DNA of 64,000 bases. It comes from Paracoccus seriniphilus. Its GTDB lineage: Bacteria > Pseudomonadota > Alphaproteobacteria > Rhodobacterales > Rhodobacteraceae. The position numbers and the translations under genes were made by a program. Location of the stretch: NCBI RefSeq assembly GCF_028553745.1, contig NZ_CP067129.1, forward strand, positions 292,501 to 356,500, given 5' to 3'. The stretch's first letter is position 1. Each line of letters begins with the position of its first letter. Shown here one piece after another: positions 2,642 to 18,082 of this stretch. The notes beneath the pieces are model-generated. The model saw only the letters and a program-made list of their open reading frames with translations, did no database searches and was not told the origin of the DNA.

Positions 2642-4453
2642 TTACGCGCCCGCATTCATGAACCAGCCGCGGTGGTCGATGAAGCCCGCGCCGAAATCGA
2701 GGATCACCCGGATCTCGACGCCATCCACGTCCCAGCCGGACCGGCTCTCGACCTGCGGGCCCTCGGCGCCCGAGAGATAGGCGAATTCAAGCCCGTCGAT
2801 CTCGCCGGGCTCGGCGGTGACATACCAGCGCGTAGGCGAGGTCAGACGCGGCTCGACCACCAGCGAGAGCGACCCGGAAAACGGGTTCACATCCGCAGCA
2901 GTCGCAGGCGCGATGGAGGCCAGCCACTTCTCGGCCGTGGTCTCCAGCGCGGGCGGGACCAGCAGGTGCTTCGGCGTCACCCGGATCGTGCGGTCCTCGA
3001 TGCCCTTCTGGGTGCGCAGCGCCAGCCGAGCGGCCGACAGCGTCGCGTCGGAAATCGCAGCCCCGGTGCCGGCCTTGTTGCCGTGATCGGCATGGAACAG
3101 GGTCTTGCCGTCCGACATCGTAGGTCCATTGCCGTTTCCCGCCTCCAGCAGGGTGACGAGGATCCGGGCTTCGGTCTCGGCGGCGGCCTGGCCCATCCGG
3201 CGGGCGAGGTCCGCGAAGGCGCCAAGGTCGTCGTTGACCAGCACCTGCCGGGTGATGCCGATTTTGCGTGCCCAGGTCTCGACCTTGTATGCCTCCCGCG
3301 CCTCGGCCATCGTCCCGGCCTTGATCTCGCCATGCTCGTCGAGCTTCTCCAGCAGCGGCGCCTCGCCCAGCATGATCTTGTTCACCGAGCGGAAATCCCG
3401 CGCCGTTGTCTGGCGACCGAGGCGGCGGATGCCCGAGGGGGCAGCCTGATAGGCGTCGCGCAGGACGCGGCCCACCGTGTCCCCGAGGATGATGGGGAAG
3501 TCCGAAGTGGTGTGCAGCGCACGGGTGACGAGACTCGCTGGCGACAGCGCCATGGTGGACTCGCCCCGCAGGGTCAGCAGCTCCTTCGCCATGTCCACGG
3601 GCGTCGCATAGGCGTAACGCCGGGCGGGTTCGCTCAGTTCGTGACGCGGATTGATGCGGGCATAGAGCGCCTCGCCCATCTGGCGGGCGCGGATTGCAGG
3701 GTCATCCTGGCTCTCGCCTATCTCGACGCGGACCTGTTCGGTGCGGATCGCCGGCGCGGATCGCTTGGCCAGAGCCTCGAAAGCCGCGCGGCGGGCGGTG
3801 TCGGGATCGGCCCCGGCGTCGATCTGGCCGTCGATCCAGGACTGGTCCAGCCCTGCGATGCGGGCGATGGATCGGATCTCGGCATTCGCCTCGGCGCGGG
3901 TCTCGGTGGTGGGCGCCTTGTCGGCACCCTCGCGGGTGGTCGTGTCGGTCATCTCTGTCTCCATGCGAATATGGGCACCGGGGTCGGCGGGCGTCGGCAC
4001 CAGGGAAATCTCGTGGGGCGTCCAGCGCACGGCGGTCAGCACGCGCGCGCCGTTCTCGGTGGTCTCGGACCATTCCTCGACCGTGTAGCCGACCGAGACA
4101 TGCCGCAGGATGCCTGCCAGCACGTCTTGCCAGACCGGCTCCACCTCGGGTCGGGCCGAGAACTGTATGAGCGCCGTGCCGCGTTTGCCATCGACGGTGG
4201 CGCTGCGGACCGTGCCAAGCACATCGCGCACCGCGGTCTGGCGGTGTGCGTCAAGGACGCTGGCCCCCTCAAGGCGCGACAGGTCCACGGCCTCAGGTGC
4301 GAGACTCAGCCGTTCGATGTATGGCCCCGCCATGTCGCGGCGGCGCACGGGCGCGCCGGTGGACCAGACGACTTCAACGTTGCGTTCTTCAACGTTGACC
4401 GTCTGTGGTCGGAGCGACGCCCGGCGGGTGTGCAGTTCCACGGTGTCAGCCAT
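2642..4453 (-). CDS. Prohead protease / major capsid protein fusion
   Basis: A 603-residue fusion. Residues about 1-165 form a U35-type prohead protease, with His70 in LDAHR, Ser120 in RHVSVGY and Glu148 in PHEIS as likely catalytic residues. A charged, Thr/Glu-rich linker with scaffold-like helices follows (about 166-290). Residues about 300-603 resemble the Mu gpT-type major head subunit, with an HK97-like shell fold expected. Such fusions are known in some Mu-like and alphaproteobacterial phages, where self-cleavage frees the capsid subunit. The ATG start has a strong GGAGG and overlaps the end of the portal gene by 8 bases, so the two are probably translationally coupled. Confidence 0.85.
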   Translation of the reverse strand: MADTVELHTRRASLRPQTVNVEERNVEVVWSTGAPVRRRDMAGPYIERLSLAPEAVDLSRLEGASVLDAHRQTAVRDVLGTVRSATVDGKRGTALIQFSARPEVEPVWQDVLAGILRHVSVGYTVEEWSETTENGARVLTAVRWTPHEISLVPTPADPGAHIRMETEMTDTTTREGADKAPTTETRAEANAEIRSIARIAGLDQSWIDGQIDAGADPDTARRAAFEALAKRSAPAIRTEQVRVEIGESQDDPAIRARQMGEALYARINPRHELSEPARRYAYATPVDMAKELLTLRGESTMALSPASLVTRALHTTSDFPIILGDTVGRVLRDAYQAAPSGIRRLGRQTTARDFRSVNKIMLGEAPLLEKLDEHGEIKAGTMAEAREAYKVETWARKIGITRQVLVNDDLGAFADLARRMGQAAAETEARILVTLLEAGNGNGPTMSDGKTLFHADHGNKAGTGAAISDATLSAARLALRTQKGIEDRTIRVTPKHLLVPPALETTAEKWLASIAPATAADVNPFSGSLSLVVEPRLTSPTRWYVTAEPGEIDGLEFAYLSGAEGPQVESRSGWDVDGVEIRVILDFGAGFIDHRGWFMNAGA

Positions 4454-5858
4454 TTCCGGCCTCCTTCCGTTGCGACGCCACGGACTGGTCGAAACTCAGC
4501 CCCAGCTCCTCCGCACGCTCGAGGTCGGCGGCGATCTCGGCATCGACCTGTTCGGCGTCGTAGCCGCGTTCGGAAATCGCCTGGGACCGGCTCTTGAGCC
4601 CGGCATTGATCGCCAGGATCTCGGCCTGCACGTCCTTCATCGGATCGACGTAATCGAACTTCGGCGGCAGCCATTCGCAGCCCAGATAGGCGTCCGGGTT
4701 GCGGTCGAAGTCCCGCGCGGGAAGTTCGCCGGTCAGCGCCGCGAGCCGCACGAACCGTTCCCAGACCGGGCGGCAGAAAAGGTGAACCACTACGTTGTGC
4801 TGGAGCTGCTCGACACGGCGGCGGAACTCGATCAGCCCCGCCCGGATCGAGGAATAGGTGACGCCCTCCAGGTCGCCCGAGACCAGTTCATAGGGCAAGC
4901 CCAGCCCCGTCGCGACGGCGCGCAGGTGGTTCTTCACGAAGGGCGCGTAGGCGTCGTGCTCGGTCGGGTTCGAGAAGCGGATGTCGGCGCCGGGCGGCAG
5001 CGGGATCAGGCTGCCAGGCTCCATGCCCACGGTCAGCGCGCCGCCGGTGTTGGTGCCCGAGAGCCCGCCCGCCGTGCCGTCGGGATCGGTGATGAAGCCG
5101 GTGAACAGAGCCGCGACCTTCGCCTTCACGAGGGCGGCGTCCTCGAACTGGTCAAGCTCGTGCAGCCGCAGCAGCACCGGCGCGAGCCAGGTGATGCCGC
5201 GCAGCTGGCCCGCGGCGAGCGGCTTGAACAGGTGCAGGCAATCGGCGGCGGGGACGCGGAGCGGGTCCATGCGGAGAGTTCCCAGCGGATCGCCCGGGCG
5301 GGAGGACAGCACCCTATAGGCGACCCTCCGGCCGGCGGCATCGAACTCGATGCCCGCGCGAATCCGCGCCCCGCCGCCGATCTCGCGGTGCAGGTCCATT
5401 GGAACCTGCTCGCGATCCAGAAGCTCGAGGTGGAGGGGGATGCTGGCGGTGTCGCTGGCCACGCGCAGCCGGGCGAAGCTCTCGCCGCTCTCGACCATCG
5501 CGCGCACGGCCATGGCCTGTAGCCCGTAGAAATCCGCCAGCCCATCCGGGGCGGCGTGATCCGTCCAGCGCAGCCAGAGCGCCTGCAGCCGCTCCCGCAC
5601 CGCGCGGTTGGGATGGGTGGATTGCGGTTTGATTCCGGCGCCGACGACATTGCCGACTAGACTGTCGATCGCCGCCGCGACCCATGGGTTGTTCCGCGCA
5701 TACCACCCGGCCCGCCGCGCCGCCGTGGTCGCGCCCGCCAAGATTGCGGCGTTTAGCCCATCGACCGTCTTGGCGCTCTCCCAACGCCGGCCGCCGCTCG
5801 CAGCGTCAAAGCTACGAGCCCGCGCGAGGCGGAGAAGGCGATGGAGGAACGTGCGCAT
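4446..5858 (-). CDS. Phage portal protein, lambda gpB-like family
   Basis: A 470-residue portal protein forming the dodecameric DNA channel at one capsid vertex. Family features include the N-terminal RRAGWYARNNPWVAAAIDSLVGN segment (shown here only as a landmark near residue 50), the GESFARL strand and the C-terminal GVTYSSIRAGLIEF helix. The ATG at 5858 is chosen; an in-frame TTG at 5864 is possible. No convincing ribosome-binding site precedes either, and the HNH cassette begins immediately upstream. The portal's original leader was therefore probably displaced when the cassette entered between terL and portal. Confidence 0.88.
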   Translation of the reverse strand: MRTFLHRLLRLARARSFDAASGGRRWESAKTVDGLNAAILAGATTAARRAGWYARNNPWVAAAIDSLVGNVVGAGIKPQSTHPNRAVRERLQALWLRWTDHAAPDGLADFYGLQAMAVRAMVESGESFARLRVASDTASIPLHLELLDREQVPMDLHREIGGGARIRAGIEFDAAGRRVAYRVLSSRPGDPLGTLRMDPLRVPAADCLHLFKPLAAGQLRGITWLAPVLLRLHELDQFEDAALVKAKVAALFTGFITDPDGTAGGLSGTNTGGALTVGMEPGSLIPLPPGADIRFSNPTEHDAYAPFVKNHLRAVATGLGLPYELVSGDLEGVTYSSIRAGLIEFRRRVEQLQHNVVVHLFCRPVWERFVRLAALTGELPARDFDRNPDAYLGCEWLPPKFDYVDPMKDVQAEILAINAGLKSRSQAISERGYDAEQVDAEIAADLERAEELGLSFDQSVASQRKEAGNG

Positions 5859-5982
5859 GGGCAAAAGAATCGCCCGAAACGGACCCTCAAGCTATTGGGA
5901 ATGTTTGGGAAACCCAAGAGGCAGCCTCCCGCCCCCACGTGTACTCCCTTCCGGATTGTGCTTGAAGATTGCCGCCAGTAGA

Positions 5983-6987
5983 ATGAGCGCTATGGCGAGA
6001 CGCACGGCATACACCAAAGTCAAAAAGTTCGACCAAGTGCGGGCAGCCCATGTCAAAGACATGGGGGACGTCGTTTTCAAGGTATTTCAATGTTTCAACC
6101 CGGAGTGCCAAGAGATCATAGCAGTCCGAGAAGACACGCTGGGTGAAGATTTTGAGATTAAGTGCCCTGCGTGCGGGTATGTGCACCGGACGGGCGACGC
6201 CCAAAAGTTCTATGATTACGAGCTGTTGCATACGACCACGAACAAAAAAATTGAAGATGGGTCGTTCGAAATCCTGATTGACGACTATGTTGCTGAGGCG
6301 ATGCAGTACAAATACTGCATCATCTGTAATGCGCTAAAGCCGTTAGAGGCATTCCATAAACATGCCTCACGGAGGTCAGGTAGGCAAGGCGAGTGCCGTC
6401 TCTGCAAAACAGTCTACAATGGGATCAAGAATCAAACACGGATAACCGATCAGCACCGAGAAGCTGCGCAAAAGAGGCGTCTATATCTTGACATCGCTGG
6501 ACCAGGAAAGATTGATAGTGGGCAGGTCCGCAAAAGGTTCGACAACAAGTGCTTTAAGTGTGGATGCGATCTGAGCGACCCGAAGGAGGGCCATTTGGAT
6601 CACACGCTTCCGGTTTCACTCCTGTGGCCGTTAACCACAGACAATGCTACGTTGCTATGTGGGCGCCACAACGGAGAAAAATCTGGTCGCTGGCCCAGCG
6701 AGTACTATTCCGACGCAGAGTTGAAGCGCTTGGCGATAAGTACGGGTGTACCTTATGAGACACTTCTGGGGCCTGCACATATCAATCCAGATGCTCTCAA
6801 TGCACTGGAAAACAAGGTGTTCGTCGATCAGTTGCTGGCAAAGTACGCCGCCTACATCGATGAGATCATCAAGGTAAGAAACCGAATCCTCAAAATGACA
6901 GGATTCGATTTTTTCTCTGTATCGACTTCAATTTCTCAGAGCATCGTTGAGCAAGCAGACAAGCAACTCGGCAGCGCTGCCAGCTAG
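5983..6987 (+). CDS. HNH endonuclease with three zinc-binding modules
   Basis: A 334-residue protein on the strand opposite the packaging genes. It has an N-terminal zinc ribbon (C37/C42 and C61/C64), a second CxxC pair module (C112/C115, C138/C141), and a C-terminal HNH nuclease with CFKC at 190-193, the LDH catalytic pair near 205-207, N221 and CGRHN at 226-230. A C-terminal helical tail follows. The G+C content is clearly below that of the flanking phage genes. It converges on the methyltransferase gene, and their TAG stops share one CTAG. It is probably the restriction partner of that enzyme. Start at ATG 5983 or 5992. The substrate cannot be read from sequence. Confidence 0.8.
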   Translation: MSAMARRTAYTKVKKFDQVRAAHVKDMGDVVFKVFQCFNPECQEIIAVREDTLGEDFEIKCPACGYVHRTGDAQKFYDYELLHTTTNKKIEDGSFEILIDDYVAEAMQYKYCIICNALKPLEAFHKHASRRSGRQGECRLCKTVYNGIKNQTRITDQHREAAQKRRLYLDIAGPGKIDSGQVRKRFDNKCFKCGCDLSDPKEGHLDHTLPVSLLWPLTTDNATLLCGRHNGEKSGRWPSEYYSDAELKRLAISTGVPYETLLGPAHINPDALNALENKVFVDQLLAKYAAYIDEIIKVRNRILKMTGFDFFSVSTSISQSIVEQADKQLGSAAS

Positions 6988-9635
6988 CTCTGAAGTACGA
7001 GATACTGGTGCGCTGTAACGGATCCCTTGTCTCGGAGGCCGTGCTTTTCACAATGCTCGACGCTTTCCGAAAATACGTCGAACGTTCTGAAGAACGGCTG
7101 TGCAATCTTCTCAATTTCTTCGGCCATGTCGCACTTTTTACTCTCTCCGAGATGAAACACCAAGAAGCCTCCAGGCTTCAGTCGTTCACGGGATTGTCGA
7201 ATGATCGGCTCATAGACATCAAACCCGGTCTTCTGGCGTTCATCGATGTACTTCTGTGGTTGGATTCTGAAATCTTCAGCCTCCCATCCAGAAAACCACA
7301 GGCGCATCCAGTTTCCGAGATAGAAGCGCGTGCTGTCAAAAAACGGTGGGGAAGTGATTACTGCATCGATGTTGTTGATTTCACCGGGCCAAGGATCCGT
7401 CGCATCCATCTGCCAAACGTGACCCTCGCGAAACCTATCTCCAATATCCACGTCAAGGCTGCGTTCGATCTTGGCCCGAAGCCGTTCCATCAGGCTCCGA
7501 TACTCGAACGGCCCTGTTGGAGCATATGGCGTCAATGGATGGGATCGCCGGCTAAGGGCATAAGGCCTGTTTCCGTGTAAGATATGCTGTAAAGCGGCAT
7601 GGACGAATGATACAGCAGGGGATGAGCAATCGTTTAATGCCATGAACTTCCTGGCGCCGAGAATTTCATTGAGAGTTCTTGGGTGGAAATATTCGTCAAG
7701 CGTTTTGTTGAATCTGATCTGCAGTGCGCGCTCCATTTCGAAATCGCTAGCCCGGTAGTCGCTCAAAAAGGCTTCGAGCTTCTCGAGGACATCCTCAATG
7801 TCAGATCGGCTCTGACGGGAAAGTTTGGCGTGGGAGATTCGAAAAGCTGACGGGCTGATCTCAAGCGCGAAAGAGGCTGCGCCGCGCAGAGAAGCCTCAA
7901 ACGCTATAGTGCCCACGCCAGAAAATGGATCCAGCATGGAACCGTCATCGCCGACGAAGATATCCACAAGGCTGGATGCAATCGCGGGCTTCAGCTTTCC
8001 TTGGTACGAGCAAAGTGAGTGGAGTTTGTTTCCCCAATTTCGAGCGGCCATTCCGGGTTTCCGATGTGGCAAGTTCGTTCTGAACGATTGCCACCTCGAG
8101 CGCGTGGATATGCGCTCCACACGACCTTTGGACGGCTTCTCAAGGACAATTAGGGATTGCCGAAGTTTTCGTCCATTTCGGGACATGCGTTCGCGAAGCG
8201 TCACATCGTCTTTCAACTTGAAGCCAAGGCGTTCGCCAATCTCAACGATCAGTTGATCAGTTGGCACATGGACGCCGCCATAGACGCTGTCTCCAATATC
8301 AATGCAGACACGGCCATGCTCCGTCAGCGCGGCGAAGGCGGGACGGAGCGCCTCATGCATGTCGTTAAAGTAGGTGCGCACCATTGCTGGTATGCGTTGA
8401 TCGTAAGCGCATTCAGCAATTTCTCTAACGATCTCGTCGAGCTTCCTAGACTCAAACCTGCCATCGCGCCGATTAGACTTGCCTTTTGTCACATCGTTGA
8501 TGCCTGCCGTAACCGCCTGCTCTCGAAATGCGCTCAGATCCGCTTTCGAATTGAGATACCCGAGAAACCACAGTTCGACTTTAGTGTTGCGGAAGTAGTT
8601 TGTTCCATTGAGATATGGTGGAGAGGTGATAATGGCATCTATGTTGTCGTCATATCGATTTTCGAGCGCGCTCATTCCCACCTGATGGATTGAGCCATCC
8701 GAGGGCGTCAATTCTTGGAGATCGTTTGCGATCAGTTCGAGAGAGGCGCTGAAAGCTTCAATGAAGTTCTCAGTTCCGCGTCGTTCCTCAGCCTCACGTT
8801 TGAAACGGAGGTCGCCTCTACGAATGAGGCGCGAAGCCGGAATAAGGCTGCGGATCGCCGCTACCTCAGCGAGTTGGCGAACACCGGAAATGCCAATTCG
8901 ATCTAAGATGCTGCGAACGCGAAGAATGGCTTCGTACTGCTCTGGCGAAAAAAACTCGCTCTTTCCGAAGGTCGCGCGATAGCTTACATCCAGCTTTTCA
9001 TGCCTCGGATGGTTCGCCGCTTTGTCCTTGGCAACCTTTACGAGCGTCAAAAGCTTCTCCGCGTATTCACTACGCTTCTCTTGACTGAGGGTTCGCGCTA
9101 GCGACTTTGCCTTGATCACATGGATACACAGTGGGTTCACATCCGAGAAAAGTCCTGTTTTCCCGAGGCCCATGATGGTCATTGGTGTCGTTCCAGATCC
9201 AGCAAATGGATCTAGGACACGCTCTGCGCCATCGCAGTATCGGCTATACACTTCCCATACGAAGTCTGGGGAGTAGCCTTCAAGATAAGGAAACCAGTTG
9301 TGCAGCGGATCGTGGCGGCCGCCTGCGAACGTTACCTGCAGTGGATCTTTGAATGCCCCTTCGTCGGTCAAGAGACCAGAAGCTACATGCTCGCTGAGTC
9401 GAATCTTGCAGAAATGGTTGATGTTTGTGCGCGCATCCCGTGCGGCGCGTTCGAGTTCACCGAAACTGTCGACACCGATGAGTTTTCGCAGCCTTGCACT
9501 GCTTAGATGCTCTACGCTCTTGAAAAGGTCGCCGTCGTCGGGTCCAAAGGCGACGGTAAGCCCGCGGCGGCCCCGGTGATTTCCCGCCAAGTCGGAAAAG
9601 TAGATCGTCTTGTGATGTTGCACTGCTTGCCCCAC
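6984..9635 (-). CDS. Tandem-domain DNA methyltransferase (two N6/N4 amino-methylase modules)
   Basis: About 883 residues with two complete sets of SAM and catalytic motifs: DPFAGSGTT at 142-150 with TSPPY at 337-341, and DPFSGVGTI at 569-577 with TSPPF at 761-765. Each set has the SAM-binding motif before the catalytic motif. TSPPY/F marks enzymes that methylate an exocyclic amino group (adenine N6 or cytosine N4). Double-domain methylases such as M.FokI modify the two strands of an asymmetric site, which is inferred here. There is no ATG near the start; GTG at 9635 or 9623 (preceded by GGGG) is proposed. The open frame runs on upstream into terL but is not coding there. G+C is lower than in its neighbours. 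Confidence 0.82.
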   Translation of the reverse strand: MGQAVQHHKTIYFSDLAGNHRGRRGLTVAFGPDDGDLFKSVEHLSSARLRKLIGVDSFGELERAARDARTNINHFCKIRLSEHVASGLLTDEGAFKDPLQVTFAGGRHDPLHNWFPYLEGYSPDFVWEVYSRYCDGAERVLDPFAGSGTTPMTIMGLGKTGLFSDVNPLCIHVIKAKSLARTLSQEKRSEYAEKLLTLVKVAKDKAANHPRHEKLDVSYRATFGKSEFFSPEQYEAILRVRSILDRIGISGVRQLAEVAAIRSLIPASRLIRRGDLRFKREAEERRGTENFIEAFSASLELIANDLQELTPSDGSIHQVGMSALENRYDDNIDAIITSPPYLNGTNYFRNTKVELWFLGYLNSKADLSAFREQAVTAGINDVTKGKSNRRDGRFESRKLDEIVREIAECAYDQRIPAMVRTYFNDMHEALRPAFAALTEHGRVCIDIGDSVYGGVHVPTDQLIVEIGERLGFKLKDDVTLRERMSRNGRKLRQSLIVLEKPSKGRVERISTRSRWQSFRTNLPHRKPGMAARNWGNKLHSLCSYQGKLKPAIASSLVDIFVGDDGSMLDPFSGVGTIAFEASLRGAASFALEISPSAFRISHAKLSRQSRSDIEDVLEKLEAFLSDYRASDFEMERALQIRFNKTLDEYFHPRTLNEILGARKFMALNDCSSPAVSFVHAALQHILHGNRPYALSRRSHPLTPYAPTGPFEYRSLMERLRAKIERSLDVDIGDRFREGHVWQMDATDPWPGEINNIDAVITSPPFFDSTRFYLGNWMRLWFSGWEAEDFRIQPQKYIDERQKTGFDVYEPIIRQSRERLKPGGFLVFHLGESKKCDMAEEIEKIAQPFFRTFDVFSESVEHCEKHGLRDKGSVTAHQYLVLQS

Positions 9636-9709
9636 GTTTCCGAGTTGTTCATTTTGATTGTAGGTACCATTGGGTGTGCGGAGCGTCCACTGAGAAATCG
9701 CTTTGCAGG

Positions 9710-11518
9710 CTATTCCATCCAAGGCGATCGGATCACCCCCGCTGCCACAGTGCCGGGCCGAACCGGCGCCGACGCTACCCCCTCCACCTCCTCGTTCAGC
9801 CTGAGCCCCATGCTGATGAGGCCGTGCAGAGCGGCGGTGGCATAAACGAATGTGTCCAACGCCTCGTTGCGCTCGCCGTCGCGCTTCGGCTGCCAGGAGC
9901 GGATCGGGCGGCCACGCTCGAAGCGGGTGACGACGCGTTCGGCGGTCAGCTGGCGGAAATACTCTGCATCGAGGCGGCGGGGAAAGTGGATCGCCCCAGG
10001 GCCGGGTTCGGTGAGGCGCAGGCGGGCATAGACGGCGTCCTTCACGGCATCGACGCCGACGATGAACAGCGGGATCTTGCCCTTGTTCGAGCGGGTGGGG
10101 CGACGCGGCCACACCGGAATGCCGGGCCCGCCGCGGCCCTTGATCGCCCAGATGCGGCGGGCGAGGCGGGTGCGGCAGAACTCGTAGGCCATCTTGGTGT
10201 GGTGGCCGCCGGTGTCGATTGCGGCGGCGCGCACGGGCAGCTCCGCCCCCGACGGATGCGGGAACGTCGCGTGCAGCACCATGTCGAGATCGGACCATAG
10301 ACGCGGCCCGGAGGGGTCGCCCCAGAGCACGCGGTAGTCGATGACCCATACCTCCTCGTCGCGGCCCCATCCGAGGATCTGCACCTCAATCCGGTCGCCC
10401 TGCACGTCGACGCCTGCGGTCAGCACGGCGACGCCAGCGGGCAGCGCCTCGCCCCAGTCCTCGCGGCGCGCCATGAGCGGGTCGGCCGGCACGGTGTCGC
10501 CCGCCTGGTCCTCCCAGGACTCGCCCAGCTTGGTATTGACCCAGACCTGGAGCCGGGCGGGATCCTTGCGGACGCGGCCGTGCTCGGCTGCGATCTCGGC
10601 CCATGTCTCCCACGGGGAGTAGAGCGCGGAGAGGTGGAAGCCCGCGGTGCGGCCGTCGCCCTCGGCCGTCGGGCGCCACTCGCCCGCGGCCAGCAGGCGG
10701 GGCTTGTCGTGCTCGTGGTGGATACCACCGCAGGCCTCGCAGACGAGATACGCCTCGTCGCGCCGCCCCTCGGGCCAGCGGATGCGCGCCCAGGTGATCG
10801 GGGCCATGTCGCCGCAATGCAGGCAGGGGACGTGGTAGTAGCGCCGGTCGCTCTGCTCGAAGGCCGCCTCGATGCGGGAATGACCCTTCAGAGTGGGCGT
10901 GGACACCATGTAGATCTTGCGCCGGCCCCGGAAGGTCGCGGTGCGCTGGATCGCCAGATCGACGGGATCGCCCTCGCCATCGGCATCGCCGGGATAGCCG
11001 TCCACCTCGTCGAGGAACAGGTAGCGCACCGGCGTGGAGCGAAGGCCCACCGCGCTGTTCGCGCCGGTCATCACCAACTGGCCGCCCGGAAAGGATTTGC
11101 GGAACAGGCTGTTGCCGGCGTCGCGGGATCGGGGCGCGGCGACCAGTTCGCGCAGGGCGGGCGTGGCCTCGATCAGCGGGTCGATACGGACGGTTGTGTT
11201 CCGGCGCACCATGTCCAGCGAAGGCATGACCAGCATGGCGATGCCGGGCGCGTTCTGGATGATGTAGCCCAGCCAGTTCAGCCCGGCTTCCGAGCCGCCG
11301 GTTTGCGCGCCCTTCATCAGCACGACACGCTCATAGGGGCTGGACGTGGACAGCGCATCCATCACTTCGCGTAGATAGGGCGTGCGGTCTGTGCGCCAGC
11401 GGCCGGGCTCGGCCGAGGTGGGCGGCAGGATGCGATGCCGGTCAGCCCATTCCGAGACCGGGATCGGCGGTTCGGGGCGGATGCCGCGCCGCCAGGCGAG
11501 ATCGATATCAGGAACCAT
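9710..11518 (-). CDS. Terminase large subunit, GpA family
   Basis: About 602 residues: the ATPase-nuclease motor that packages DNA into proheads. The N-terminal ATPase has a Walker-A-like KGAQTGGSE and Walker B FLDEVDGYP. A zinc knuckle (CLHCGD and CEACGG) lies between the domains. The C-terminal nuclease domain has acidic residues including VDVQGDRIE. The gene starts inside the end of the small-subunit gene, an overlap typical of terS-terL pairs. ATG 11518 is chosen; GTG 11521 also fits. It now stands 3.8 kb from portal because of the nuclease/methyltransferase cassette. Confidence 0.92.
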   Translation of the reverse strand: MVPDIDLAWRRGIRPEPPIPVSEWADRHRILPPTSAEPGRWRTDRTPYLREVMDALSTSSPYERVVLMKGAQTGGSEAGLNWLGYIIQNAPGIAMLVMPSLDMVRRNTTVRIDPLIEATPALRELVAAPRSRDAGNSLFRKSFPGGQLVMTGANSAVGLRSTPVRYLFLDEVDGYPGDADGEGDPVDLAIQRTATFRGRRKIYMVSTPTLKGHSRIEAAFEQSDRRYYHVPCLHCGDMAPITWARIRWPEGRRDEAYLVCEACGGIHHEHDKPRLLAAGEWRPTAEGDGRTAGFHLSALYSPWETWAEIAAEHGRVRKDPARLQVWVNTKLGESWEDQAGDTVPADPLMARREDWGEALPAGVAVLTAGVDVQGDRIEVQILGWGRDEEVWVIDYRVLWGDPSGPRLWSDLDMVLHATFPHPSGAELPVRAAAIDTGGHHTKMAYEFCRTRLARRIWAIKGRGGPGIPVWPRRPTRSNKGKIPLFIVGVDAVKDAVYARLRLTEPGPGAIHFPRRLDAEYFRQLTAERVVTRFERGRPIRSWQPKRDGERNEALDTFVYATAALHGLISMGLRLNEEVEGVASAPVRPGTVAAGVIRSPWME

Positions 11519-12017
11519 CACCGAAGCTCCCCAAGGGCATGTCGGCCAGATGTTCGAGATGCTCGCGCATCATCCGGTCGAGGGCGGTGAAGGTGGCGCG
11601 GGGGTCGGCGCCGAGCTCGGCGGCCAGAAGCGGCGCCGTGCGCTGGACCCAGGCGAGATGCGCGTCGCGTTCGGCACGGGCGCGCGCGAAGACCGTGCGC
11701 CGCGCCTCCTCGGCGTCGATCAGCTTGCCCTGCTCACGCTCATAGGCCAGCCGGGCGCGCTGGACCTTGACGATCTCGTGCAGCCGCTTCGCCTCGGCCA
11801 GCGTGGCGGTGCGGGTGGTCGCGGTGGGTGCGCCGCCCTTGTTGCGCCGGGCGGGGTCGAGATTGGTCTCGATCCAGGCCAGCCCCTCAGCGACGTCTAT
11901 GCGCCCGTCTGCGCGGACCGGCAGCCCCTTGGCCACCAGTTGCGAGATGCGCCCCTTGGTCAGCCCGACGCGGGCGGCGAAGGCGGTCTTGGTCTCGGCA
12001 TCGTTGAGTTTAGGCAT
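11508..12017 (-). CDS. Terminase small subunit, Nu1-like DNA-packaging protein
   Basis: A 169-residue protein with an N-terminal helix-turn-helix (AARVGLTKGRISQLVAKG, about 14-31) that would recognise the packaging site. A central long helix rich in Arg/Glu follows (about 70-125), then a C-terminal part likely to contact the large subunit. The layout matches lambda Nu1-type small terminases. Its end overlaps terL by about 11 bases. The presence of its own terS means the element could select its own DNA for packaging rather than relying on a helper. Confidence 0.82.
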   Translation of the reverse strand: MPKLNDAETKTAFAARVGLTKGRISQLVAKGLPVRADGRIDVAEGLAWIETNLDPARRNKGGAPTATTRTATLAEAKRLHEIVKVQRARLAYEREQGKLIDAEEARRTVFARARAERDAHLAWVQRTAPLLAAELGADPRATFTALDRMMREHLEHLADMPLGSFGDGS

Positions 12018-12119
12018 ATTCGGCCCTCACGCTGGCGGACCAATGCGCTGCGGGTCCCCACATACGAATGTGCGCAGGAGGAACCGCCCGGCGGTTCGCA
12101 ATCCAATGATCCCTGCCAT

Positions 12120-14729
12120 TCACGACGGTTCTGAAGTTTTCGCGAAGCGTGCCGGGCGTCGCCGTCCGTTGACGAGGCGCAGCCCGCCTACGATCCGGTT
12201 CTGGTGTGCCCCGATCCAGCGCCCAAGCCGCCTGCCGTTGATCGCGCCGCCTTCGCCCGCGACCCGCAGCAGGGCCTCGCGGAACTCGGGGTGCACGAAT
12301 TCGGCGCGGCCATAAAGCTGCGGTCGCTGTTCGGTCGCACGCTCGATCACGTCGCGAACACTGGCCGGTTGCAGGCCGATCACCTCGCGCCAGCCTTCCA
12401 GGACAGCGGTCAGCGCCTCGAGCTTCGGATCGGCGCCGCGAAGTTCCTCCATCGTGTCGCAGGGGTCGGCCTCACCCAGCCAGATCAGCGCGTCGCGGAT
12501 CCAGCGCGACCAATCGGTGAAGGAGCCGAGCGGCGCGCGCTGCTGCGGTCGGCCGGCGATGTGGAAGGCGCGCAGGATGGTCAGCCCGGCCGAGACGTAG
12601 TCACCGCGCCTCTCGCTCACCATGGCGAGGGGATTGCGGTCGAAGGCGCGGAGCTCTGGCCGCTCCACCCCGGCGTCGAGCGTGGCGCGGAGCGCGCGGC
12701 GGGTCATGTCGCCCTCGAAGGTGAGGTTGTTGCCGGTGGCGAAGATGGCCGCGTTGCTCGGCACCTCGGCGTTCACGGACTTGCCAAGGATTCGGACCTT
12801 GAGGCTCGTTTGCGTCATGGTCTGGCAGAGAAGCTCGCCTCCCAGGGGTTCCTCGCAGTTGTCGATGGCGATCAGCACATCGCCCGCGATCAGCGCCGCG
12901 CCCAGCCGCTTCTCCATTTCCTCCTCGGACTTGCCCTGCGCGATCACCGGCGCGGGACGGGCGGTGGCGATCAGGCTCGCGAGGTCCACGAGCATGGATT
13001 TGCCAGTGCCCGCGGTCGGCGCGTTGAAGCCGTGGAGAGGGGCCGTGGGCAGCGAGCGGCGCACCAGCGCGGTCAGGATGGCCGAGAGCGCCACGGCGCG
13101 ATCTCCTTCCGTCACGAAGGGGAAGGTCGAGATCAGATCCTTGAGATAGGCCAGAGCGCGCAACGCCATGGCGCGGTCGGGTTCGCGCGGCAGCGCCGGG
13201 AAATGGGCGTCCTGCGGATCGAACAGCAGCCCGGTCTGCGCGTCGTAGCCAGGCAGGTCGAGGATCGAGCCGTCGGCGCGCAGGGTCGGGCAGTTGATGA
13301 TCCCGGTCAGCACCGGCAATCGCCATTGGCCCTCGCGCGCCAGGAAGGTTTCCGCGATCCTGTGCGGGCAGTCGGTGCTGAACCACTCGCCCTCGCGCTT
13401 GTCGAACCTCTTCCAATTCGCCGCGCGGGTGAAGGTCTCGGCCATGTGGTGCGCCTTGACGCTCACCAAACGCGGCGCATCGACCGTGCGCCCGTCCGAG
13501 ACTGCCACCGGCACCATCGCCGGACGCACCACCATGCTGCCGCGCTGATAGTAACCGAGCCCCGCCTGCATCAGCGCGCCCTCGGCCATGTCCACGGCCC
13601 GATGCAGGAAGCCCGCAAAGATGCGGATTACCGGGCGGCCGTCTCCGTCGTCATCGTCGGCATCCTGGCCGTCTGAAATGCGAGCGCGCGAGGTTCGCAC
13701 CCGCTCCACCCGCGCGGCGCGCCATCCGTTCTGTCGTGCGAGCCAGAACAGCGTGCCGACGGTCACGCTGCGCACGGTCGAGAAGCTGTCCCATTTTTCG
13801 GCAGTGTATCCCGGATCGTTCTTGCCCGCCTGCGCCGACCAGCTCTCCCACAGGTCGCGCCCCTCAGGCCCGAGTGCGGCGTAGAGTGCGAGTCCGACCT
13901 TGATCCAGTCGTCGTAGGGCAGATCGTCGTTCGGAATGTGGGCGACGGCTTCCTCGACCAGTTCGCGCGACGGGGCCTGATTCCGCTTGAGCCCGGCGGC
14001 CTTGCGACCCTCGCGCTCGATCTCGCGGCGGTCAGCGGTGCTGCACCCGCCAACCTTGCGCAGATATTTTTCGGCCGCGGCGATGAACGCCGCGCACCGC
14101 TCCTTGGTGACTGTCGGCAACTCATGCAGAGGCACATCGAGCGGCGAGCATTCGGGCCAATAGTAGGGCGCCTTCGTGTCCGGGTGGATGCCGAAGGCCA
14201 CGAATTGCTGCCCGGTCGCCAGGATCTCGACGCGCGCCACCGTGCCGCCAAGCATGTGGAACTCGGGCGTCTGGATCTTGTCGAAGGGCGCGTCCGTCCG
14301 GAAGGCCAGCAGGATCTTCGGCGCGCGCCCGATCCGGCATGCGGGCGTCGGGCCAAGCATCTCGGTGGCGATGCCGCTCAGCTGTCGGGCATGCTGGGGA
14401 TCGAGCACGTCGATGTCGATGCCGACCAGTGTCCCGCAGAGCAGGCCGGTGTTGGTGCAATTGCGCTGCGCCTTCGTCCAGCGGGCGATCTCGGCTTCGT
14501 CGGCGTTGGCACAGACCGTCTCCCAGCCCTTCATCATCGGCCGCTTGCCCGCGGCCTTCATGGCGACATGTGCGCCCAGCACCGGCACCGGGCGATAGCC
14601 GTTGCGATGCAGTTGCAGGCGCAGTTCGGTCGGATCCTCGGGCGCCGCAGGGGCGAGCGCGTTGGCGGACGCATCCGCCGACGCATCGTTGTGGGTCGTG
14701 TCTTTTGTCGTGCGGATGGCGTCCTCCAT
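12120..14729 (-). CDS. Primase-helicase (AEP Prim-Pol plus SF3-like ATPase)
   Basis: An 869-residue replication protein. The N-terminal archaeo-eukaryotic primase domain has the metal-binding D105/D107 pair in GIDIDV and a FGIHPDT segment. A PriCT-type helical domain follows (near 230-300, DDLPYDDWIKVGLAL). The C-terminal ATPase has Walker A APTAGTGKS near residue 573 and Walker B IAIDNCE. Such fusions start replication of phage satellites and plasmids. It is in the leftward operon, three bases after the small unknown gene. A nearby origin is expected but was not identified. Confidence 0.87.
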   Translation of the reverse strand: MEDAIRTTKDTTHNDASADASANALAPAAPEDPTELRLQLHRNGYRPVPVLGAHVAMKAAGKRPMMKGWETVCANADEAEIARWTKAQRNCTNTGLLCGTLVGIDIDVLDPQHARQLSGIATEMLGPTPACRIGRAPKILLAFRTDAPFDKIQTPEFHMLGGTVARVEILATGQQFVAFGIHPDTKAPYYWPECSPLDVPLHELPTVTKERCAAFIAAAEKYLRKVGGCSTADRREIEREGRKAAGLKRNQAPSRELVEEAVAHIPNDDLPYDDWIKVGLALYAALGPEGRDLWESWSAQAGKNDPGYTAEKWDSFSTVRSVTVGTLFWLARQNGWRAARVERVRTSRARISDGQDADDDDGDGRPVIRIFAGFLHRAVDMAEGALMQAGLGYYQRGSMVVRPAMVPVAVSDGRTVDAPRLVSVKAHHMAETFTRAANWKRFDKREGEWFSTDCPHRIAETFLAREGQWRLPVLTGIINCPTLRADGSILDLPGYDAQTGLLFDPQDAHFPALPREPDRAMALRALAYLKDLISTFPFVTEGDRAVALSAILTALVRRSLPTAPLHGFNAPTAGTGKSMLVDLASLIATARPAPVIAQGKSEEEMEKRLGAALIAGDVLIAIDNCEEPLGGELLCQTMTQTSLKVRILGKSVNAEVPSNAAIFATGNNLTFEGDMTRRALRATLDAGVERPELRAFDRNPLAMVSERRGDYVSAGLTILRAFHIAGRPQQRAPLGSFTDWSRWIRDALIWLGEADPCDTMEELRGADPKLEALTAVLEGWREVIGLQPASVRDVIERATEQRPQLYGRAEFVHPEFREALLRVAGEGGAINGRRLGRWIGAHQNRIVGGLRLVNGRRRPARFAKTSEPS

Positions 14730-14732
14730 GGC

Positions 14733-15062
14733 TTACTCTCCGTCCAGAACCCAAGCGGCGAAGTCATCCTGTGCATGATCTTCGGCCGCTTCGGGGCTGC
14801 CGATGAACTTGACGAGGCCGTAGTAGACCTTGCTGGTCAGACCACGTGGGTCGCGCTCCCAGGAGGTGGTCCCGCGCAGGTCGTGATCAAGCTCGGCGCG
14901 CAGCCGGTCCAACGCTGCGAGGGTCCGATCCGCCTCGCGATAGGTCGGGGTGCCGGGCACTGCCGAGGCCATCACGTGGATCAGAGCATCGCGGGTGTTG
15001 CGAAGGCAGTTGTCCACGAACACATGTTCGTCAGTCGAAAACGGGTTGCGAAAATCGCTCAT
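14733..15062 (-). CDS. Small element protein, unknown function
   Basis: 109 residues, acidic and predicted largely helical, beginning MSDFRNPFSTDEHVF. No membrane segment, signal peptide or nucleic-acid motif is visible. The ATG overlaps the stop of the upstream excisionase-like gene (ATGA), and the primase-helicase gene follows after three bases. This points to coupled translation and a role in early replication or its control. I do not recognise the family. Confidence 0.7.
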   Translation of the reverse strand: MSDFRNPFSTDEHVFVDNCLRNTRDALIHVMASAVPGTPTYREADRTLAALDRLRAELDHDLRGTTSWERDPRGLTSKVYYGLVKFIGSPEAAEDHAQDDFAAWVLDGE

Positions 15063-15304
15063 CGCGCGGCTTCCTGCTGCTCTATCCATTCGAGAAGCCG
15101 CGATTTGCGCGCGCAGATCACGTTGCCCATGCGGAACGTGGGCATCCGCACCTTGGCCTCGCTGGCGTAGTAATAGACCTTCCGCCGCTCCTTCGCGTCG
15201 CCGAAGACGAAGAGCGCGATGGCGTCCGCGCCCCGCAGAAGATCCTCGGCCAGCGTCGGGCAAACCTCTCCCGTGGCGGGTCCAGCCCGCAAATGCTCCT
15301 GCAT
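15059..15304 (-). CDS. Excisionase/AlpA-like winged-helix DNA-binding protein
   Basis: 81 residues. The segment GADAIALFVFGDAKERRKVYY, then LPTF-like MPTFRMGNVICARKS and a final WIEQQE helix, look like the small winged-helix proteins that read element-end DNA in integrative elements. The role (excision directionality or early-gene control) is inferred from size and pattern and from its place second in the leftward operon, next to the MerR-like regulator and across from the integrase. Start ATG 15304. Confidence 0.6.
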   Translation of the reverse strand: MQEHLRAGPATGEVCPTLAEDLLRGADAIALFVFGDAKERRKVYYYASEAKVRMPTFRMGNVICARKSRLLEWIEQQEAAR

Positions 15305-15331
15305 GTTGTCCTCCGAAGTTTCTGATTGGCC

Positions 15332-15787
15332 TCAGGCGACGCCGAGGGACGCCTTCACGCGGTGTTCGAGTTGCTCGAGGTTCACCACCGCAAAGGCGCG
15401 AACCTTTGGATCGGCGACGATGCTGGCGATCTCGGCGGTCGGGACAATGCTACCCGAGGTGATGTCGATTTCGCCCTCGATGTCCGGGTCAGCCTCCGTG
15501 GTGCTGACCTGCCGGCAGATCGTGCTGATCACGAACAGCGCTCCACGCTCTTCGCGGAACTGCAGCTGCGCCGTGTGCATCGAGACGACCGCAGGCGAGA
15601 GCCCAAGGCGGCTGAACTCGGCAACCGCGCCGAGAACGATGGCATCCTCGTAGGTGAACTTCCTCGCCTTGCCCGGCTCAACAGGATTCTCGGGCTTGAA
15701 GTGTCCGCGCGAGATCCATGCCTCGACCTGATAGCGGGTTAATTGCGCCGCGTCCGCGATCTGCTGGATCGTGAATTCCTGGTCCAT
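15332..15787 (-). CDS. MerR-family-like transcriptional regulator
   Basis: 151 residues. The N-terminal helix-turn-helix FTIQQIADAAQLTRYQVEAW and the following wing KARKFTYEDAIVL match the MerR fold. The rest lacks the cysteine signature of metal sensors, so the ligand is unknown. The start MDQEF at 15787 is preceded by AAAGG; a longer reading frame upstream lacks such a site. It is the first gene of the leftward operon and divergent from the integrase, so it probably sets the lysogenic/excision switch. Confidence 0.75.
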   Translation of the reverse strand: MDQEFTIQQIADAAQLTRYQVEAWISRGHFKPENPVEPGKARKFTYEDAIVLGAVAEFSRLGLSPAVVSMHTAQLQFREERGALFVISTICRQVSTTEADPDIEGEIDITSGSIVPTAEIASIVADPKVRAFAVVNLEQLEHRVKASLGVA

Positions 15788-15798
15788 GACGATAACCT

Positions 15799-15847
15799 TT
15801 GACAGTGTGTTTGAGCTATGGGTAGATGACCTCCGACGAACTGTCAA
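15799..15847. promoter_or_regulatory. Divergent int/merR control region with inverted TTGACAG
   Basis: Perfect TTGACAG at 15799-15805 and its inverse CTGTCAA at 15841-15847 face each other. Each contains a consensus -35 hexamer, one reading toward the integrase and one toward the merR-like gene. The arms may be overlapping face-to-face promoters, the two half-sites of an operator, or both. The -10 matches are weak. Confidence 0.5.
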
Positions 15848-15924
15848 TGGTATTATCTAGACTGCAAAATTATGGACTTGCCTTCCCGGCGAAGCAGAGC
15901 GTGATTGAGCGTTGGAGGACGCAA

Positions 15925-17028
15925 ATGGCCACGATCCGGAAGCGAACATTGCCCTCGGGCCTGGTGCGCTGGCAGGTGGATTTCACTGACCAGGCCGGAA
16001 AACGCCGATCGAAGCTGTTCCCGCGCCGGAAGGATGCCGATGTCTACCTTGTGAAGGTCCGCTCGCTGGTCGCCAACAACACCTATCTGGCCGACAGCGA
16101 GAGCATCACCGTGGCCGATGCCGCGAAGGCGTGGCTCGACCATTGCGAGATGCGCTGCAAGACGGGGCGGCGGATGGAGCGCACCACGCTTCGCGGCTAC
16201 AGCGACTATGTCCGACTGCACATCACGGATGCGAAGGTCGGGATCGGGGACAAGTTGATCGTCCAGCTGACCCGCCGCCATGTGAACGAGTTCCGCGACC
16301 GGCTGCTGCTGAACGGCCGGTCCGAACATCTCACGCGCCGCGCGTTGTCGGTCCTCAAGCTCATCCTCGACCATGCCATCGACAACGGCCAGCTCTTCAC
16401 CAACGCCGCGCAAGGCGTGCGGGTGATCAAGTCGAGCCGAATCGACTACAAGGCGCCGGTGCCCTCGAAGGAGACGATCCGCGCGCTGATCGAGGCTGCC
16501 GACGAGGACTTCAAGCCGCATTTGATTGTCTCGGCCCTGACCGGCCTGCGCGCTTCGGAGTTGCGCGGGCTGCGCTGGCAGGACGTGGATTTCGAGAAGG
16601 GCTTCATCCACGTGCGCCAGCGCGCCGATGCCTACAACCAGATGGGCGAGCCGAAATCGCGCGCGGGTTATCGCGACATCCCCGCCGGGCCGATGGTACT
16701 GAACGCCCTGCGCCGCTGGAAGCTGCGCTGCCCGAAGAGCGACCTTGGGCTGGTGTTCCCGGCACCGCGGGGCGGCGTCCTCCAGCACACCAGGACGCAG
16801 GCCCGGTTCCGCAAGCTGCAGGCGAAGGTCGGTGTGAAGCTGCGCTGGCACGACCTGCGTCATTTCGCAGTGTCGCTCTGGATCGAGCAGGGCTTTTCCA
16901 TCAAGGAGGTGATGACCTTCGCCGGTCATTCCTCGATTCAGATGACCATGGAGCGTTACGGCCACCTGTTCCCGTCGCCCGACCACCAGAAATCGATGGT
17001 TCTTGTGGAGCAGCGCGTGCTTGGATAG
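15925..17028 (+). CDS. int: Tyrosine-recombinase integrase
   Basis: 367 residues. The N-terminal arm-binding region (MATIRKRTLPSGLVRW) and a core-binding SAM-like domain (about 60-165) precede the catalytic domain. Catalytic residues are visible as Arg in LTGLRASELRG, HxxR in HDLRHF, His in AGHSS and the nucleophile Tyr in MERYGHLF. It catalyses recombination between the tRNA-fMet 3' half and the element copy. The ATG at 15925 follows GGAGG at a good distance; an upstream in-frame start at 15826 lacks one. It faces attR. Confidence 0.95.
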   Translation: MATIRKRTLPSGLVRWQVDFTDQAGKRRSKLFPRRKDADVYLVKVRSLVANNTYLADSESITVADAAKAWLDHCEMRCKTGRRMERTTLRGYSDYVRLHITDAKVGIGDKLIVQLTRRHVNEFRDRLLLNGRSEHLTRRALSVLKLILDHAIDNGQLFTNAAQGVRVIKSSRIDYKAPVPSKETIRALIEAADEDFKPHLIVSALTGLRASELRGLRWQDVDFEKGFIHVRQRADAYNQMGEPKSRAGYRDIPAGPMVLNALRRWKLRCPKSDLGLVFPAPRGGVLQHTRTQARFRKLQAKVGVKLRWHDLRHFAVSLWIEQGFSIKEVMTFAGHSSIQMTMERYGHLFPSPDHQKSMVLVEQRVLG

Positions 17029-17055: not shown

Positions 17056-17835
17056 ATGAGCTGCCTTCCCTCGCACGGTCGCGTGAATTGCGTGCGTTGC
17101 TTCGCGCCCGCGACGGCCTCCGATTTCGACAAGACTAGACGCGAGTCGCCAGACCGCACATGGCGGATTACTTCGAACCCGCTCGCGTGGGGCAGCGTGG
17201 AGCCCGAAATTGTCGTGCTGGGGTTCTCAAAGGGGCCGACGCAAGCCGGCGCATTGGCGAGTTCACCTCACGACGAGATTGCCTACAAAGGATCGCGCAC
17301 GGCCGTGGGCAAGATCCTCTCGCACATCGGCGTCGTCCCGACGCCAACGAATGGTGACTACAGGGGAATGGTCGACCGCCTCATCTCCGACAGGAATGGC
17401 CGATTCCATTTCGGTTCGCTCGTTCGATGCACTGTCGAGCGCTACGACGAGAAGGCTCAAGCCTGGAAAGGCTCGGGTGGCGGCATGCTCGACAAGTTCA
17501 TGGCCACGCCATTCGGGAACGAGGTGGCGACGAACTGTGCTTCGCAGTTCCTCGGCGCGTTGCCGTCACGGACCCGGCTTGTCGTCATGTTCGGTTTGGG
17601 CACGAAGCTCAACTATGTCCGGGCCGCGCGAAAGCTGGTTGAGGCAGCGCGCCCGGGAAAGTGGAGGACAGTGAACGAGGTCGCCTATTCCGATGGAGAC
17701 ATCACCTTCGTGCATGTCGAGCATTTTGCGTCGCAAGGAGCCCTGATCCCCAACTGGCTCGGCGTGAACGATCATGACCGTGCTGCACTGGGGCGAAAGG
17801 CGCGAGAAGCGGTTCAGGCGGCTCTGGCTTCGTAG
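17056..17835 (+). CDS. Unknown cargo protein between integrase and attR
   Basis: 259 residues, possibly a uracil-DNA-glycosylase-fold relative. Cys-rich start (C3, C12, C15), a hydrophobic strand followed by glycine (EIVVLGFSKGPTQ, about 50-62), FGSLVRC, a VVMFGLG strand, and a C-terminal VHVEHFASQG. The order of an early LGFSKG-like loop and a late H-containing loop recalls uracil-DNA glycosylases, but the diagnostic motifs are not clear, so this is only a guess. The start follows CAGGAATTCC. Its place beside int at the element end is a common cargo/defence location. Confidence 0.6.
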   Translation: MSCLPSHGRVNCVRCFAPATASDFDKTRRESPDRTWRITSNPLAWGSVEPEIVVLGFSKGPTQAGALASSPHDEIAYKGSRTAVGKILSHIGVVPTPTNGDYRGMVDRLISDRNGRFHFGSLVRCTVERYDEKAQAWKGSGGGMLDKFMATPFGNEVATNCASQFLGALPSRTRLVVMFGLGTKLNYVRAARKLVEAARPGKWRTVNEVAYSDGDITFVHVEHFASQGALIPNWLGVNDHDRAALGRKAREAVQAALAS

Positions 17836-17952: not shown

Positions 17953-17997
<45 letters not shown>

Positions 17998-18082
17998 GAA
18001 TAAGTAATAAAAATATTCCGAAATCCCGCCAAATGGCAGGGACATGACGCGTTCAAACTCGTGTCAATGACGGGAGAATGGC

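Follow-up and report, generated by a model that had tools for sequence, protein, structure and literature searches.

Within a 64,000-nucleotide stretch of the Paracoccus seriniphilus genome (contig NZ_CP067129.1, positions 292,501 to 356,500; hereafter the window), we found an element that carries, between its genes for the terminase large subunit (terL) and the portal, what we read as an exchangeable slot in a head-only satellite. Its cargo is predicted to consist mostly of restriction-modification (R-M) genes, here a DNA methyltransferase and an HNH nuclease. We give this reading as a whole a probability of about 0.8. The initial annotation had described a low-G+C nuclease gene on the opposite strand and a methyltransferase gene separating terL from portal, and both genes are present as described. 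The two packaging genes are open and stand 3.85 kb apart, and the G+C content of the slot is 0.521 versus 0.706 in the flanks. In 1-kb windows, it amounts to 0.50–0.53 across 6001–9500 and to 0.67–0.72 just outside.

Next, we compared the terL-portal junctions of related elements. We searched genome_contigs (best 80 of 335 matches) and viral_contigs (best 80 of at least 600) with TerL, and viral_contigs also with the portal (best 80 of at least 600). TerL was also searched in 390 genomes of the order, of which 103 matched at 1e-100, most of them only through phage-type TerL proteins of about 50% identity or less. The 259 sequences compared yielded 179 terL-portal junctions, 152 of them with a TerL at least 75% identical; dropping 47 redundant junctions resulted in 105, including the window, and the 27 junctions with lower TerL identity were left out of the counts. 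All but one of these 105 junctions are occupied, by 2.1–7.6 kb of differing, mostly defence genes; the single empty one (L214) measures 110 bp. Moreover, the cargo has a lower G+C content than its flanks in 104/104 cases. Because of this near-complete occupancy and the uniformly lower G+C, a chance origin of the low-G+C insert can be dismissed. A hotspot for defence cargo had been proposed in the initial annotation, and the comparison bears this out. The two genes do not recur in all relatives: the methyltransferase-HNH family is found in only 4/105 junctions (the window, L025, L135 and L154), which rules out that they are ancestral core genes.

Judged by sequence, the slot is dominated by predicted R-M genes. 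Junctions were called R-M-like using R-M-labelled open reading frames (ORFs) as phmmer seeds, complemented by methyltransferase motifs. This assigned 88/104 occupied junctions (87 by phmmer at 1e-5 and one more by motif), and 77/104 at 1e-10. The same procedure flagged only 1/100 host-chromosome segments of 3.5 kb each; this dominance goes beyond what had been annotated initially. Of 30 cargo ORFs submitted to PADLOC (one ORF per junction), 23 had strong R-M matches, covering types I, II (m5C and N4/N6), IIG and III. A Pfam scan of 65 other cargo ORFs, which were chosen as already R-M-like and whose family members may overlap, returned N6_Mtase (26), N6_N4_Mtase (17), DNA_methylase (6) and ResIII (7). 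Given this dominance of R-M-like cargo, the carrier appears to be specialized in one kind of antiviral cargo. A search for Abi_2 in 12 records gave no match. As a side observation, a single metagenome-assembled contig (JAHRYM010000001.1) contains three satellites of the family (L021, L022 and L027) with differing methyltransferase cargo.

In the window, the putative restriction endonuclease is encoded on the forward strand at 5992–6987 (331 aa) and the methyltransferase on the reverse strand at 6984–9623 (879 aa), so that the genes are convergent and their stops overlap by 4 nt. The start of the HNH gene is probably 5992, which gives the same length as in the homologs P0121–P0123; the methyltransferase probably starts at GTG 9623, with a length like that of P0001, or at GTG 9635. 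The methyltransferase matches PF01555 and PADLOC MTase_II and contains two sets of catalytic motifs I and IV (FAGSG/SPPY and FSGVG/SPPF), consistent with two domains. The nuclease matches phrog_1035 and shows D-H, H-N and four CxxC motifs; its residues D206, H207 and N230 are invariant in 23 aligned sequences (alignment A1). An AlphaFold model (AF2; pLDDT 87.1) produced local matches to Cas9 HNH domains, and no Pfam, PADLOC or NCBIfam family was matched by the protein. Both genes also travel together elsewhere: the homolog lists of methyltransferase (best 120 of 2001) and nuclease (best 120 of 842) share nine longest-contig sizes versus 0.81 expected, and the convergent pair was seen again in L025, L135 and L154. 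A 6.5-kb Psychrobacter plasmid (L281) carries a methyltransferase relative (43% identity) split into two genes beside an HTH regulator, together with a convergent gene related to the nuclease of L025 (43% identity). In Rhodovulum steppense (L056), a methyltransferase 89% identical to that of the window directly follows terL before the contig ends. Close methyltransferase relatives were absent from viral_contigs (the distant ones in L135 and L154 were retrieved via TerL), and none was found in phage records at 1e-40. A scan of 5700–9900 for sigma-70-type promoters detected one site versus 2.5 in shuffled sequences. Taken together, the two genes most likely form a type II R-M pair.

Several points weigh against this interpretation. 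The number of R-M-like junctions falls to 65/104 at a phmmer threshold of 1e-20, and the seeds were drawn from the same slot, an objection that is partly answered by the count of 64/81 obtained without the seed junctions. The first control consisted of six segments located beside the elements, two of which were flagged; the 100 host segments were used in its place. Loci of common ancestry are not independent. For the nuclease, the fold match is only local (TM of query 0.2), and HNH domains are found in homing and packaging nucleases too. A sequence search of solved structures gave no close relative. Among 385 genomes of the class, the methyltransferase was present at 1e-80 only in the window's own genome. 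Finally, 16/104 slots contain no recognised R-M gene, and some of these lack a clear link to defence: flagellin-like (L132), VWD (L114), oxidoreductase (L148), histidine-kinase ATPase with DUF1924 (L035), DUF4910 (L112), glycosyltransferase (L012), VWA (L142 and its near-twin L032) and SEC-C (L014) genes. The cargo of L104 and L122 belongs to no clear family. The remainder of the 16 are defence-like, namely NERD-UvrD (L094), an IetA-like ATPase (L099), SIR2-STAND (L108), HNH_2 with AIPR (L063) and a PP2C with a weak PD-T4-6 match (L042).

In 35 close loci, conservation on one side of the slot ends at the terL stop codon, being already lower across the last 90 nt of terL; the final terL codons differ according to the cargo, as seen in L010 with L098 and in L095 with L101. 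On the other side, it ends about 53 nt before the portal ATG, where column identity drops from about 0.95 to 0.38 within 20 nt. G+C content, junction comparison and this drop in conservation place the variable slot (52% G+C) at about 5912–9709, bounded on the left by the terL stop and on the right by a 53-nt portal leader (5859–5911, reverse strand). Initially, the cassette had been drawn from the terL stop up to the portal start, leaving both genes intact; the intact genes and the terL boundary hold, but the foreign part stops short of the portal, whose start is most likely the ATG at 5858 and not the TTG at 5864. A 26-nt leader motif of the window, located at a fixed distance of 53 nt before portal, recurs with up to four mismatches in 57/105 non-redundant loci and with up to eight in 76/105, while more diverged relatives carry a different leader. 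Across the 105 loci, 33 nt around the portal start fold better than shuffles (mean z -1.53, compared with 0.11 for upstream sequence and -0.52 for coding sequence); a 101-nt stretch of the window itself folds no better than its shuffles (z -0.68). The leader further contains a pair of TTCCCAA repeats spaced 10 bp apart, and directly before the start codon lies a potential hairpin, which in some relatives extends over this codon. A role in promoter or translational control is possible. Since the P2/P4 hotspots are cos-adjacent, the leader was considered as a cos site as well; conserved blocks precede both portal and terS. In one record (L136) portal lies at the contig start and terL near the contig end, which perhaps reflects satellites in tandem or a permuted record; trimming at gene boundaries or assembly breaks could account for contigs that begin at portal or close to it (L136, L191 and L200).

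With respect to turnover, the loci L078 and L123 share cargo of about 98% nucleotide identity, compared with about 91% for terL and about 85% for portal. Near-identical cargo on diverged backbones shows that cassettes are exchanged, and the compared sequences as a whole show turnover at the slot. More distant TerL relatives (59–64% identity) mostly have tight junctions of 228–540 bp (L051, L052, L054, L057–L060 and L068), with a head-tail gene between terL and portal in 6/8 of them; looser junctions of 839 bp and 1.8 kb occur in L055 and L061. Two Pseudovibrio loci (L069 and L070; TerL 55–56%) display the same portal-capsid-joining order and a slot of 2.6–3.1 kb with small unknown genes, among which no R-M seed match was obtained.

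The carrier looks like a head-only satellite-like element rather than a full prophage, which is a second point beyond the initial annotation. The window begins inside a 23S-5S-tRNA-Met operon, and the 15.86-kb island is inserted in tRNA-Met (2058–2134) between 49-bp direct repeats, attL at 2090–2138, which comprises the 3' half of the tRNA gene, and attR at 17953–18001 (98% to attL). This 3' half is present in 67/105 loci. On the reverse strand, the island encodes a 69-aa head-tail joining protein (2430–2639; NF047331, phrog_2545), a 603-aa fusion of prohead protease and major capsid protein (2642–4453; NF045541, 756 bits), the lambda-family portal (4446–5858; TIGR01539, 368 bits; PF05136), the GpA-family TerL with ATPase and nuclease domains (9710–11521; PF05876, PF20454), the small subunit TerS (11508–12017; phrog_57), an 869-aa primase/replication protein (12120–14729; PF08707, phrog_29234, phrog_1156), a 176-aa ORF (14733–15263) that matches no family in Pfam or PHROGs and has homologs in relatives, and a small putative regulator (15332–15847), also with homologs in relatives, a weak PADLOC mad1 match and no NCBIfam match, which by its sequence we take to be MerR-like. 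A tyrosine integrase (15826–17028; PF00589, phrog_1) and a 259-aa ORF without a match among solved structures (17056–17835) follow on the forward strand, the latter between integrase and attR. The capsid protein matches PF25209, PF10124 and PF04586 and not PF05065 (E 0.001). No tail or lysis family was found among the window proteins scanned with Pfam, PHROGs and NCBIfam (the 259-aa ORF was compared with solved structures only). In 10 relatives, one ORF each after the head-tail gene likewise gave no tail family: one matched a head decoration protein, two matched PHROGs whose function is not known, and seven had no match. The window portal is less than 60% identical to the portals in every one of 64 matched phage records. 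Upstream of terS (12018–12100, with equivalents in 34 loci) lies a conserved block, within 80 nt of the gene, that in the window and some relatives contains a CACAT..ATGTG dyad; it is a candidate cos site, at the position that cos has in lambda.

The family possesses a second variable region, located between the head-tail gene and att, which holds a head-decoration gene in many elements plus varied single genes. Large examples, mostly of no recognised kind, are L049:18134–19606, L063:19120–20736 and L137:19706–21475; sequence searches of the PDB with five proteins of this pocket gave weak ABC/SMC-type ATPase matches for L137 and none for the other four. In L214, where the junction is reduced to 110 bp (8102–8211), this pocket (genes at 12744–16519) contains, after the head-decoration gene, CcrM/DpnA-like and DpnM-like methyltransferases of adenine type and a convergent gene for 674 aa. 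Outside L214, no methyltransferase match was found in the second pocket among 81 loci with sequence there, of which only 54 show more than 1 kb. The placement of methyltransferases elsewhere when the slot is empty, the very common carriage and the parallel on a small plasmid would fit R-M genes kept mainly as an addiction module against loss of the satellite rather than as antiviral cargo. Type I, III and IIG systems are weak addiction modules. Such systems are common in the slots, and a satellite-borne type II R-M system was shown to protect against phages (PMC12595487), which makes addiction as the main function rather unlikely.

A further explanation takes the slot as a general stuffer that brings the element to packaging size, with R-M genes common merely as frequent mobile genes of the right length. 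The length data speak in part for it. The 28 elements in which both att copies are present have a total length of 17,019 ± 748 bp; the longer their slot, the shorter the region from the head-tail gene to att (r -0.59, permutation p 0.0007; r -0.55, p 0.002 after exclusion of L007 and L041, both similar to other members), p-values that are weakened by shared ancestry. These lengths show a trade-off between the slot and the second pocket. In the same 28 elements, slot length showed no relation to the att-to-terS side. On the other hand, once the slot is subtracted, the stretch between integrase and head-tail gene varies little (10,836 ± 350 bp in 41 elements) and shows no trade-off with the slot (r -0.03), and 88/104 R-M-like junctions are far from a random gene sample as represented by the host segments, a comparison limited to host genes. 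We therefore consider a mere stuffer unlikely. Tentatively, and as a possibility we would not yet favour, R-M carriage may be near-obligate: an invariant core of some 11 kb and a single R-M system would together keep within a packaging limit of some 17 kb, the system occupying the second pocket when the main slot is empty, and R-M would be chosen over suicide defences as it spares the methylated, tail-supplying prophage and excludes rival phages and satellites.

Alternatively, the methyltransferase could be an orphan that shields satellite DNA from restriction in new hosts, its partner genes not being restriction enzymes. Many slots indeed pair a methyltransferase with a partner that matched no named family in our searches. 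Restriction subunits, or enzymes combining restriction and methylation in one protein, were recognised in other slots (L002, L003, L011, L023 and L033), and the partner in the window has a conserved HNH site, so that we regard this as quite improbable. In HK97-type phages, HNH proteins work with the terminase. A packaging role of the HNH protein with the methyltransferase as a hitchhiker, suggested by the proximity of its gene to terL and by an HNH endonuclease among the packaging genes of a published element of the type of capsid-forming phage-inducible chromosomal islands (cf-PICIs; PMC13230959), is rejected as the least probable explanation, based on the opposite strand, the occurrence of the family in 4/105 slots, which means that relatives seem to manage without it, the shared contigs of HNH and methyltransferase homologs, and the plasmid-borne relatives of both.

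Returning to the exchangeable R-M slot, we infer from the gene arrangement how it may work. Host DNA, the satellite and any prophage residing in the cell would receive methyl marks from the two-domain methyltransferase, probably on both strands of a non-palindromic site; DNA arriving without these marks would be cleaved by the HNH protein, and phages would thereby be excluded. A slot at this position appears feasible because a 53-nt leader stays attached to the portal-capsid operon; cargo of either orientation might thus be tolerated between terL and portal without harm to the packaging genes. The exchange of cassettes from one satellite to another would proceed through recombination within terL and portal on either side of the slot, and the satellites would be transferred with the aid of a helper. 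R-M systems may be favoured as they would spare an already methylated resident helper prophage.

Related principles are known from other elements. Cf-PICIs were reportedly introduced by Alqurainy et al. (2023). According to citing papers, they are satellites that encode terminases, portal, protease, capsid and head-tail proteins and lack tails (PMC11389934, PMC13230959). The element described here is similar: it encodes head and packaging functions, and none of the scanned proteins belongs to a tail family. Its head module consists of a GpA terminase, a lambda-type portal and a PF25209 protease-capsid fusion, whereas the cf-PICI tree in PMC13230959 uses a PF05065 capsid; in view of these differences in capsid and terminase we describe it as working like a cf-PICI and do not file it as a member. 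For P4-like satellites and P2-like phages, Rousset et al. 2022 (PMC9122126) described anti-phage hotspots with 79 groups of systems and many mechanisms. Like the slot, these are small variable loci (about 1–5 kb) between two conserved genes, with cargo in either orientation, a different system in different elements and turnover; the P2 hotspot lies between the replication gene gpA and the portal gene gpQ. As portrayed in that paper, they are cos-adjacent and mechanistically diverse, whereas the slot lies inside a packaging operon of a head-encoding element and is mostly R-M-like, with several other defence-like kinds among the remaining 16 junctions. An R-M-dominated site is also known from the Listeria immigration control region, which harbors R-M types I–IV in 86.1% of strains and occasionally other genes; in contrast to the slot, it is chromosomal, not located on a mobile satellite, and conserved within sequence types (PMC10059834). 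The Pseudomonas satellite I55 likewise carries a type II R-M system, and it is for I55 that phage protection was demonstrated by experiment; it differs in being moved by a jumbo phage and in having R-M as one of several predicted defences, and the I55 report, as far as its account of the satellite goes, describes no packaging-operon slot (PMC12595487). Our literature search found no published description of the slot, which may be partly covered by the main cf-PICI and satellite-survey papers. Satellite defence hotspots and cf-PICIs are already known; placed within a packaging operon and dominated by R-M genes, the slot of this mainly alphaproteobacterial lineage looks like a new form of them.

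Altogether, a single site marked by two conserved genes yields R-M systems of several types across mainly Alphaproteobacteria. The family offers a natural experiment on why a satellite prefers modification-based defence over abortive infection, and the empty slot of L214 together with the length trade-off makes both the packaging constraint and a near-obligate carriage of R-M directly testable.

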